Assembly (NCBI RefSeq): GCF_008365295.1
Contig: NZ_CP043505.1
Location: 372,001-436,000 of the forward strand
Origin: Agromyces intestinalis
Lineage (GTDB): Bacteria; Actinomycetota; Actinomycetes; Actinomycetales; Microbacteriaceae
Length of the DNA stretch: 64,000 nucleotides
Direction: 5' to 3'
Shown: piece by piece, positions 18,339 to 47,636 of the stretch
Position numbering within the stretch: the stretch's first letter is position 1
Layout of the letters: every line of letters begins with the position of its first letter
Position numbers and translations under genes: made by a program
The notes under the pieces: generated by a model
The model's database searches: none
Seen by the model: only the letters and a program-made list of their open reading frames with translations
What the model was told of the DNA's origin: nothing

Positions 18339-18929
18339 CTATTCCGCGACCCGATCGGGCAGCTTCTCGAGCGCAACGAGGCACGCTGCGACCGCCGCCC
18401 GCACCGTCGCCGCTCGGATCGCGGCACGGTCGCCGTCGAGGTGCAGCGCCGTCACCTCCACCTCGCCGCCGGCGAGTACGGCGATGAAGACGGTGCCGGG
18501 CGGTCGACCGTCTTGGGGATCGGGCCCGGCGACGCCCGTCGTCGCGATCGCGAGCTCGGCCGGGCGGCCCTCGACGGCGAGCACACGGGCCACGCCGAGC
18601 GCCATCTGGCTCGCGACCTCGGCGTGCACGGCGCCCTCGCGTGCGAGCAGCGCGCCGTCGACCCCGAGCACCGAGCGCTTGACGGCGGTGTCGTAGGCGA
18701 CCACGGCTCCCGACAGCGTCTTGGATGCCCCGGGGATCCGCACGAGCTCCGCGGCCAGCGCCCCACCGGTGAGCGACTCGGCGATCGCGATCCGAAGGCC
18801 TCGTCGGGTCGACTCGGCGACGAGGCGCGCGGTGGGGTCGACCGAGTCGCCCGCAGCCACGGCACCGGTGCGGCCTGCCGAGTCGCCCGCGGTCACGGCA
18901 CCGGTCGCCTCGCCTCGCGCTTCGCTCAC
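18339..18929 (-). CDS. pncC: Nicotinamide-nucleotide amidohydrolase (CinA C-terminal domain only)
   Basis: A 196-residue single-domain CinA protein that would deamidate NMN to nicotinic acid mononucleotide. The family core is IAIAESLTGGALAAEL, GAVVAYDTAVKRSVLGV, GVARVLAVEGRPAELAIATTGVAGPDPQDGRPPGTVFIA. The N-terminal CinA/COG1058 domain is absent, as is common in actinobacteria. Its first 35 residues contain a 12-codon tandem duplication (GAVTAGDS/GAVAAGDS). The start overlaps the pgsA stop as ATGA. Competence-linked roles of CinA should not be assumed here. Confidence 0.9.
   Translation of the reverse strand: MSEARGEATGAVTAGDSAGRTGAVAAGDSVDPTARLVAESTRRGLRIAIAESLTGGALAAELVRIPGASKTLSGAVVAYDTAVKRSVLGVDGALLAREGAVHAEVASQMALGVARVLAVEGRPAELAIATTGVAGPDPQDGRPPGTVFIAVLAGGEVEVTALHLDGDRAAIRAATVRAAVAACLVALEKLPDRVAE
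18844..18915. repeat. 36-bp imperfect tandem duplication in pncC
   Basis: Two 36-bp units begin with GAGTCGCCCGC at 18844 and 18880. They keep frame (12 codons) and encode the repeated start of PncC. The second unit is degraded near its end. Confidence 0.75.
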
Positions 18930-28943: not shown

Positions 28944-28950
28944 GCCCTAC

Positions 28951-28956
28951 AGGCTA
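28951..28956 (-). promoter_or_regulatory. -10 hexamer TAGCCT for dapA (leaderless type)
   Basis: TAGCCT lies 7 nt before GTG 28943. A GTAGGGC between them is only a weak ribosome site and is too close to the start. Confidence 0.45.
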
Positions 28957-29012
28957 TCGGTATGGCGGGCGTCGACGCGCCGCGTGCCCGCCGTCGGCGC
29001 TGCGGCACCATG

Positions 29013-29096
29013 ACGTTCGCGCCGGAGGAGTTCCTCCCCGACACGCCGAATCCGATGCCCCTCGCGCGGTGTGTCGCGCGCGGAGTCCTACGCCGT
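29013..29096. repeat. Palindromic element, left copy (78 bp plus ACGTTC edge)
   Basis: Two 30-bp copies of one repeat, 29019-29048 direct and 29067-29096 inverted, are separated by 18 bp. They share the core GGAG/GTAGGA and the end CGACAC(G/A)CCG. The outer copy carries an extra ACGTTC (29013-29018). The element ends 1 bp before the stop codon of the DUF559 gene. Its partner at 30089-30172 has the same 30-18-30 layout. Confidence 0.8.
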
Positions 29097-29097
29097 G

Positions 29098-29964
29098 TCA
29101 TAGCCGGCCGAGGCCCCGCGAGAGGTGGAGGCCGCGATCGACCCGAGCGAGGATGGCCGCTTCGACGATCCCCCATTCGTGCACGACGAGCGCGTAATCG
29201 AACCGCAGGGTCTCGAACCCGAGCGCTGCCGCGAGCGCGTCGCGACGCAGGTCCTTGTGCCGGTGCTGCGGCGACTCGTGATTGGATCGACCGTCCACTT
29301 CGAGGATGAGCCGGTCGCCCACGACGAAGTCGACCCTTCCGACGCCCGGCACCTCCACCTGGCTCTGCACGTCGATGCCGTACCGCCGCAGCCGAAGCCG
29401 CAGCAGCGATTCGAGCCCGCTGTCGGCGTTCCACCTCGCGAACTCCGTGAGCCAGCGATGCTCGGCCGGCAGCCCCGAGCTCAGGCGGTCGAGGCCGCGC
29501 CGATCGATCAGCCGTCGGCGCATCGCCGACTCGAGGCAGACGAAGAACTCCTCTGCACCGAGGCATCCGAGCACCTGCCGGAGCGCGTCGACGATCGACA
29601 CGAGACCCGCCGACGAGGAGACGTCGTTCCAATGCTGCACGCAGCGGCATGCCGGGTGCGGGCGTCGACGGCCCGTCGGGCGCATCGCAACATGGGTCTC
29701 GGGATGCGCCCCGAGCACCCACACCCCGGCTAGGCGCAGCCGTGAGACGCACCCGACTGCGCCGCCGTGGAGCAGGGCGGTGACGAGGTCGGGTTCGGCC
29801 TCGGGCGTGACGTAGGTGCCGGGTCGGATGCGGACGAGGTCGCCGGTGCGCACCGCCCGAGCCAGCGAGCGACGATCGATGCCGAACGAATCGAGCTCGC
29901 GAGCCGAAACGACGCCGCCGAGGTCGGCGCAAGCCTGGTGCACGAGATGCGGTTCAACGGGCAT
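29098..29964 (-). CDS. wHTH-DUF559 (Vsr-like endonuclease fold) protein
   Basis: A 288-residue protein. The N-terminus (about 5-60) resembles the AbiEi-type winged helix (CADLGGVVSARELDSFGIDRRSLARAV, then RIRPGTYV). The C-terminus (about 200-280) carries a DUF559/Vsr-like nuclease signature: VDFVVGDRLILEVDG, a following His, HKDLRRDALAAALG and ETLRFDY. No toxin partner lies beside it, so an AbiE-type toxin-antitoxin pair is not supported. ATG 29964 was chosen; the frame continues to 30114 but that part runs into the right palindrome. It lacks a clear ribosome site or -10 box. It is framed exactly by two palindromic elements, which may point to mobility. Function unknown. Confidence 0.75.
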   Translation of the reverse strand: MPVEPHLVHQACADLGGVVSARELDSFGIDRRSLARAVRTGDLVRIRPGTYVTPEAEPDLVTALLHGGAVGCVSRLRLAGVWVLGAHPETHVAMRPTGRRRPHPACRCVQHWNDVSSSAGLVSIVDALRQVLGCLGAEEFFVCLESAMRRRLIDRRGLDRLSSGLPAEHRWLTEFARWNADSGLESLLRLRLRRYGIDVQSQVEVPGVGRVDFVVGDRLILEVDGRSNHESPQHRHKDLRRDALAAALGFETLRFDYALVVHEWGIVEAAILARVDRGLHLSRGLGRL

Positions 29965-30088
29965 GCGTCGACGGTGCCGCCGAGCGCCGGCCGTCACGGC
30001 CTCGGAGACGCGAACAGTGGCGCGGGGCCGACTGCAGCCGGGCTGTCGAGGAGGAGTCGCGCCGATCCGCCGCGAGAGGGTGTGGTGC

Positions 30089-30172
30089 GCGGCGTAGGAG
30101 ATTCGCCGGGACACGCCGACTCGGGTGGGCGCGTGGCGGCGTGTCGCCCGGGATCTCCTACACCGCGAACGT
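30089..30172. repeat. Palindromic element, right copy (78 bp plus ACGT edge)
   Basis: Two 30-bp repeat copies, 30089-30118 direct and 30137-30166 inverted, are 18 bp apart and agree at 24 of 30 positions. The outer copy continues as GAACGT (30167-30172), mirroring ACGTTC at the left element. Compared with the left element, copies agree at about 22 of 30 positions by hand alignment without gaps. Confidence 0.8.
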
Positions 30173-30229
30173 GGCGGGGGGGCGGGGTGGGGCGGGTGGG
30201 CGGGGGCGGGGCGGGTGGGTGGGTGGGGG
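30173..30229 (+). repeat. G-rich tract with G-quadruplex potential
   Basis: Eleven runs of three or more G, separated by single C or T, fill 57 bp ending at the base before the folA stop codon. For folA and thyA, transcribed leftwards, this is the template strand, so the folA transcript would end in a C-rich stretch. Confidence 0.85.
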
Positions 30230-31590
<1,361 letters not shown>

Positions 31591-43682: not shown

Positions 43683-44279
43683 TCACGCGAGCTCGGACGC
43701 GCGCACCGCTCCCCGCGCGAGCACGCCGATGCCGTACTCGTACGCCTCGTCGACACCCGGGCCGAGCCGGAACCGGCCGCCGAGCTCCATCGCCAGGAAC
43801 CCGCTCGCCCAGGCGGTGACCGTGCGCGCGAACGGCAGCGCGTCGTCGGGGCCGACGATCGCCTCGGCGACGTCGACCACGGCCCGGCTCGCGTCGCGCA
43901 GGGCGGCCTCGGAGCCGAGGTCGCGCTCGGGTTCGATGAACAGCAGCCCGAAGGCGGCCGGGTTCGCGGTCGCCCATTCGCGCAGCGCGCGGGCGAGCGT
44001 GGACAGACGGGCGCTCGGGTCGCCCTCGACCGCCTCGGGCTCGCCACGAACCGCAGCGGATGCCGCGGCCAGCCGCTGAGTGAGCTCGTGCGCCACGTCG
44101 TCGACGACGAGCCCGACGAGGTGCTCGCGATTGCGCACCCGCTTGTACAGCGACGGCGCGCGGACGCCGACCCGCGCAGCGACCGCCTGCATGGTGAGCG
44201 CGTCGACCCCGCCGTCGTCGACGAGCGCGCGGCCCGCGCGAACCATCCGGTCGAGCGAGGTGCGTTCGGGCGTCGGCAT
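43683..44279 (-). CDS. TetR/AcrR family regulator (of the MBL gene)
   Basis: A 198-residue repressor. The helix-turn-helix is MQAVAARVGVRAPSLYKRVRNREHLVGLV near residues 30-60. The ligand domain resembles TetR_C groups with a WATANPAAFGLLF segment. ATG 44279 has GGAGGT just upstream. It is divergent from the metallo-hydrolase gene, and the gap holds a nested palindrome array over the hydrolase promoter. It most likely controls that gene and itself. It sits between the carboxylase genes but is unlikely to be their main regulator, because their operators are of another type. Confidence 0.88.
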   Translation of the reverse strand: MPTPERTSLDRMVRAGRALVDDGGVDALTMQAVAARVGVRAPSLYKRVRNREHLVGLVVDDVAHELTQRLAAASAAVRGEPEAVEGDPSARLSTLARALREWATANPAAFGLLFIEPERDLGSEAALRDASRAVVDVAEAIVGPDDALPFARTVTAWASGFLAMELGGRFRLGPGVDEAYEYGIGVLARGAVRASELA

Positions 44280-47566: not shown

Positions 47567-47636
47567 CGGGAACACATTCGACGATTCGGAACACTTCTCC
47601 ACAGCAGCGTCCTCCCCATCCTCGAAAGTGTTCCCG
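47567..47636. repeat. Three GGAACAC half-sites in a convergent gap
   Basis: CGGGAACAC (47567), GGAACACTT (47588) and inverted AAGTGTTCCCG (47626) occur within 70 bp, giving two perfect 9-bp inverted pairs. The gap holds no gene. It may be a protein-binding array or a long-looped terminator for the two converging genes. Confidence 0.6.

Follow-up and report, generated by a model that had tools for sequence, protein, structure and literature searches.

Within the 64-kb window, the whole stretch of DNA analysed here, a single gene on the minus strand (29098–29964, start codon ATG at 29964–29962) lies between two palindromes of about 86 bp each. It encodes a 288-residue protein with a wHTH (AbiEi-like) half and a DUF559/Vsr-type nuclease half. 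The whole unit sits in the dapA-dfrA interval (28944–30229), whose neighbouring genes encode DHDPS and DHFR according to Pfam. The palindromes, both of hairpin family W, occupy 29015–29099 and 30085–30170, and the left one covers two bases of the nuclease gene's stop codon. Outside the right palindrome there is a G-rich, low-complexity tract on the plus strand (30173–30232, GC skew +0.74), of the kind also seen beside the filled sites described below.

An earlier note on this DNA had described each side as a 30-bp repeat followed by the same repeat inverted, and all four arms are found where it had placed them. Compared in pairs, the arms match at 20, 23, 22, 20, 22 and 24 of 30 positions, where the earlier note gave about 22–24. 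Its 36-bp terminal inverted repeats (29013–29048 and 30137–30172) proved 78% complementary when recomputed, that is at 28 of 36 positions, and its left 78-bp element does end at 29096, one base short of the TGA at 29100–29098. The right palindrome has 39-nt arms that are 77% complementary. The arm of family W contains CGTAGG inside, and judged by eye most of the other families shown are without it.

The window protein matches the Pfam families AbiEi_4 and DUF559, with no match to Y1_Tnp. Its wHTH half has an AbiEi-like fold, and its nuclease half a Vsr-like fold with conserved acidic and histidine residues; Glu185, Asp212, Asp224, His229 and Asp238 are invariant across 40 aligned sequences, and the top structural match of this half is the homing endonuclease I-Bth0305I. 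The other searches added little: NCBIfam gave no match for three proteins, two proteins matched PHROGs families of unknown function weakly and nothing else there, and a search of PDB sequences returned weak matches only (best 3hrl, E 0.08). In the source annotations, members of this protein family are called "DUF559", "very-short-patch-repair endonuclease" or "AbiEi antitoxin". The best explanation is a protein composed of an AbiEi-like two-domain half, predicted to bind DNA, and a Vsr/I-Bth0305I-like PD-(D/E)XK half. It differs from the AbiEi antitoxins of type IV toxin-antitoxin systems in that the AbiEi-like part is fused to a nuclease, and the locus differs from AbiE toxin-antitoxin loci in that, by Pfam, the window gene adjoins the DHDPS (dapA) and DHFR (dfrA) genes and not an AbiEii toxin gene. 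Unlike Vsr and I-Bth0305I (EDxHD) endonucleases, it is encoded by a free-standing gene between dapA and dfrA that is linked to dispersed hairpins. In PMC7319586, AbiEi and Rv2827c are reported to bind inverted repeats of 23 bp that lie within the promoters of their own genes.

Taken on their own, the two window flanks show a modest likeness: their score of 19.5 is above the 95% point for mismatched pairs (17.5) and below the 99% point (22). A covariance model, R1, brought both elements out. It was trained on six palindromes from other parts of the genome, neither of the window copies being among them, and ranked the two at the top over the 64-kb window (left, 50.4 bits, E 5e-10; right, 63.7 bits, E 2.5e-13), the next site reaching 24.7 bits (E 1e-3). 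Used as a BLAST query, the right palindrome found 6 further sites in the genome at E ≤ 3e-4; the left element was not recovered by that search at E ≤ 10. Between 28900 and 30300 there was no Rfam match at E ≤ 1, and no promoter- or terminator-like site was found there. Weak palindromic matches to the family-W model at 18758–18830 and 44145–44222 (E ~1e-3) may be other hairpin families or terminators.

The source genome, a single 3.8-Mb contig, carries four further wHTH-DUF559 genes with 31–34% identity to the window protein, and all four have their own, differing repeats on both sides; the pair at C1:737374 scores 86.0 and that at C1:1411882 is weak (19.0). Searches for solo copies covered three of the five families and found them for all three, with 13 further sites at E ≤ 1e-9 for the hairpin of the C1:3457645 gene and 4 at E ≤ 2e-7 for that of the C1:913172 gene, in addition to the window family. 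The palindromes are thus present both at other DUF559 loci and in the rest of the genome, the two places in which the earlier note would have counted their absence against its reading. One of the 13 sites lies in the window itself, at 47567–47636, a solo hairpin of a second family with GGGAACACATTCGAGGAT-type arms; the same hairpin brackets the DUF559 paralog C1:3457645-3458496, so that its cognate gene is about 3 Mb off in contig coordinates. An L033-type hairpin pair at C1:1314373 and 1315508 was considered as the frame of a DUF559 gene and rejected, since it encloses a different ORF.

A profile of the five proteins had matches in 38 of the 41 genomes of the genus sample, 121 in all with fragments included, and 94 of these were taken (those left out were 5 full-length and 22 fragmentary or weak matches). 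For the 93 genes with long enough flanks, the best local match between the 5' and 3' flank was judged against mismatched flanks taken from other genomes, and a cut-off score of ≥22 was applied. In Agromyces, 52 of the 93 genes have a repeat common to both flanks at this cut-off, against 0 of 59 outer control pairs, whose maximum was 19; 50 of the 93 reach the 1% level, where about one would be expected. Among the 52 passing pairs, 45 score ≥17 in both orientations and are therefore palindromic. For other genera, 80 loci were kept out of 134 confirmed relatives; 65 of them, mostly from Microbacterium, were non-Agromyces loci and 63 were usable, the Microbacteriaceae MAG locus L224 being left out. 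Here 42 of 63 loci reach a score of ≥22, against 0 of 58 controls. These counts demonstrate the association of the genes with flanking palindromes; 41 of the 93 genus genes and 21 of the 63 from other genera stay below 22, and neither of the two mycobacterial loci included (L285 and L288) has a flank pair. Some individual pairs call for caution: that of G038_L090 may be ordinary, looking like a shared hairpin of the terminator type, the pair at L257 is of low complexity, and the score of L248 may be inflated by a masked N run that it contains. The elements are roughly 70–95 bp long, and the 5' palindrome commonly ends about 75–215 bp ahead of the matched part of the gene. By eye, the arms vary from locus to locus, and many loci have in common an inner block resembling GACACGCCG.

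The hairpins are also found as multicopy solo elements. We searched 12 elements against their 11 source genomes and three genomes without the gene. Element e4 has at least 54 sites in genome G016 and e5 at least 21 in G037, two in each case being those beside the gene. The listed matches that fall outside an element's source genome are those of e8, at 4 sites of G033, and a single fragment of e10 in G002. Among the matches listed, none is in the three gene-less genomes, which is a weak control because most hairpin families are confined to few lineages. Of 39 solo copies put through a crude ORF test, 32 are extragenic and 7 fall within an ORF called with confidence; 13 lie between convergent genes and 1 between divergent ones. 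Copies of e12 keep their outer arms, and their inner part varies by copy yet still folds. At L208 and L207 in G016, e4 hairpins occur in clusters of three to five, spaced about 170–220 bp apart with similar intervening sequence, and these clusters look like tandem duplication.

The genes behave differently from the hairpins. Over 90 within-genome enzyme pairs drawn from the 94 genes, median identity is 35% and the maximum 63%. Single hairpins multiply, and the gene together with its two palindromes does not. A transposon bounded by terminal inverted repeats was accordingly rejected, because the genes are not multicopy, and in this the gene-bearing unit differs from an insertion sequence or transposon. 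The mobile unit envisaged in the earlier note needs correcting in this respect: the single dispersed palindromes are multiplied, and the gene with both of them is not.

Hairpin family and enzyme type go together in the families tested. The e8 hairpin occurs at E ≤ 1e-6 in 13 of 60 genus genomes, namely in all 7 with an enzyme that shares at least 60% identity with that of e8 and in 6 of the 53 others (Fisher P = 4e-6, a value that is no exact probability, since the genomes are related). The others divide into 0 of 1 genome at 59% identity, 2 of 18 at 51–56% and 4 of 34 with no enzyme match at E ≤ 1e-75. Of the six genomes that carry e8 and no enzyme at least 60% identical, G033 has old sites in common with G017, and its e8 hairpins may be relics. 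Over 86 elements, similar proteins show only a weak overall tendency to have similar hairpins (rho 0.14; Mantel, 1 of 500), and the relation becomes clear only above about 60% protein identity. The comparison drawn in the earlier note with a RAYT/REP-like system served by a different enzyme is supported by the palindromes at other DUF559 loci, by the solo copies, by this tracking of the enzyme and by relatives in which the cognate enzyme and the hairpins at corresponding sites are both missing.

The dapA-dfrA interval lacks such a gene, by eye, in six relatives (G022, G027, G040, G036, G030 and G003). When G024 is compared with G003 and G030, the left edge of its unit lies, by eye, within about 10 bp of the outer edge of the palindrome, and the right edge is less clear. 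In four of the five closest pairs of dapA-dfrA units, dapA is about 96% identical in DNA while the enzymes are only 52–59% identical, a discrepancy that suggests, from sequence comparison, that whole units have been exchanged at this interval. At L193, L182, L181, L168 and L169, dapA-dfrA loci of close relatives, enzyme and hairpin differ strongly despite flanks that are about 96% identical. Fragments of DUF559 genes beside dapA in G029, G014, G025 and G009 (L170, L176, L184 and L188) are decayed units.

Solo hairpins, too, are present or absent at orthologous sites along with the enzyme. Genomes G030 and G024 have e12 enzymes that are 92% identical, and G024 has a hairpin at four of the five G030 sites, the fifth matching on one side only. 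Around dapA, genome G003 shares 95% identity with G030. It carries a single enzyme, 39% identical, and none of e12, and the e12 arms are missing there at all five sites; two of these are clean joins (S198 is gapless), and in the remaining three the interval is taken up by 453, 198 and 1113 bp of different sequence. Likewise, the best enzyme match in G036 is 37%, none being of e8 type, and the e8 arms are absent from all 8 of the G017 sites, where 6–93 bp separate the flanks. Of these eight sites, G033 has four in common with G017, as well as a further 2.7-kb interval with a single arm-like match, and G020 has two. At two solo sites, 1.1-kb stretches present in G003 and G020 have, by eye, the look of unrelated genes. 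In G020, L327 (G020:C7:309175-310275), at a position corresponding to a G017 solo hairpin site, has by eye tandem repeats with a GGTTGAGCCTGTCGAAACCC-type core beside a dehydrogenase-like gene. The difference between filled and empty sites is often the hairpin plus tens of base pairs. In these alignments, whose flanks have diverged, no movement event was seen and no target-site duplication was found by eye.

The filled sites have a distinctive composition. Over 60 bp on either side of 40 solo copies, the left flank is C-rich (mean skew -0.31) and the right flank G-rich (+0.23), a pattern present in 38 of the 40 (Wilcoxon, P = 8e-11) and, outside gene units, in 46 of 52. By contrast, 14 empty alleles, taken from ten sites of e8 or e12 hairpins, have skews of 0.02 and 0.02, with the pattern in 7 of 14. 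By family, it is strong in four, weak in W, some copies of which have little or no flank skew, and absent from the two e5 copies examined. The window unit has the G-rich tract on its right outer side; on its left the skew is +0.04 and there is no C-rich tract. A Ku gene is present in 12 of 12 genomes tested, and together with the tracts beside filled sites this would fit error-prone end joining.

Taken together, these results probably reflect a two-part system resembling REP sequences and their RAYT transposases, with an AbiEi-Vsr nuclease in place of the HUH transposase. We infer that the enzyme binds and cuts its hairpin, that the hairpin is copied and that end joining completes the insertion. 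The AbiEi-like half would bind the inverted arms of the cognate hairpin (inverted repeats, of 23 bp, are also what AbiEi itself binds), and the nuclease half would cut DNA at the hairpin. A hairpin copy would then enter a new, mostly intergenic site during the repair of a break, error-prone end joining completing the insertion, and the enzyme would in this way maintain a REP-like hairpin population as a RAYT does, by other chemistry.

The parallels with REP/REPIN and RAYT (TnpA-REP) systems are close: the enzyme gene is flanked by its own palindromes, these are dispersed, mostly extragenic and present in many copies per genome, two inverted arms surround a spacer, and the pairing is family-specific. 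The enzyme, however, is an AbiEi-like wHTH joined to a PD-(D/E)XK nuclease, whereas RAYT is an HUH tyrosine (Y1) transposase (PF01797), a family with no match in the 12 genomes tested; the system is not a member of REP/RAYT, because the defining HUH transposase is absent. REP repeats are 20–40 bp long and end in GTAG or CGTC, in contrast to the elements of about 70–95 bp here, whose arms by eye depend on the family, and the C-rich and G-rich tracts beside insertions are a further difference. CGTC-tagged REPs, described in PMC3733652 as dispersed palindromes without a known transposase, likewise lack a Y1 partner, but are short tagged repeats in other bacteria. In the open-licence PMC literature to 5 August 2026, taken as titles and the starts of abstracts, with subscription journals largely and bioRxiv wholly outside that set, no palindromes were tied to DUF559 genes.

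A bolder version of this reading, which we regard as possible but doubtful, is that the hairpins form a new class of mobile DNA, replicated not by a transposase, a recombinase or a reverse transcriptase but by a sequence-specific AbiEi-Vsr nuclease, and inserted with the help of Ku, with enzyme and hairpin changing specificity together. The nuclease would excise or nick the hairpin, and Ku-type joining at breaks would leave the C-rich and G-rich filler. Were enzyme and hairpin to shift in specificity jointly, several orthogonal pairs per genome would be possible.

The hairpins might instead be MITE-like palindromes moved in trans by an unrelated transposase, with the DUF559 genes as passengers caught between two copies. 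Short, non-coding solo hairpins that are present or absent among relatives, and inverted repeats that bound the gene units, are what such elements would look like. We consider this unlikely, since a single genome has different repeat families around its five paralogs of the enzyme, the enzyme is the common factor across families and genera, the e8 hairpin and its enzyme occur together in 7 of 7 genomes, and a Y1 transposase gene is found in 0 of 12, in an enzyme screen that comprised Y1_Tnp and Ku.

Somewhat less probable still is that the hairpins are operators, bound by the AbiEi-like half to control its own gene, with the dispersed copies as the sites of a regulon. The promoter binding of AbiEi and Rv2827c reported in PMC7319586 and the usual place of the 5' palindrome ahead of the gene agree with this; a palindrome is also found at the 3' end of the gene, however, and solo copies are present or absent as insertions and often lie at convergent, rarely at divergent, gene pairs (13 versus 1 among 39). 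Least probable is a homing-type selfish nuclease that cuts dapA-dfrA alleles without the unit and spreads by gene conversion, the solo hairpins being decayed or off-target by-products: the structural match to I-Bth0305I, the recurrence of units at an interval that is empty in relatives and their apparent exchange there speak for it, but homing into one allelic site does not account for a hairpin that occupies at least 54 sites of a single genome, and the source genome has its four other such genes elsewhere.

In summary, the two-part reading would mean that an unrelated nuclease of the restriction fold takes the place of the HUH transposase, with several enzyme-hairpin pairs in one genome. To our knowledge, REP-type hairpins have been tied to one enzyme class only, the HUH tyrosine transposases. 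In Agromyces-related soil actinobacteria, nuclease and hairpin together look like a small mobile DNA system of an undescribed kind. If this is true, a gene family that is common in actinobacteria would acquire a function, its members would provide a natural set of co-varying DNA-recognition pairs, and one could ask whether a mobile element can be sustained by a nuclease that has no joining activity.
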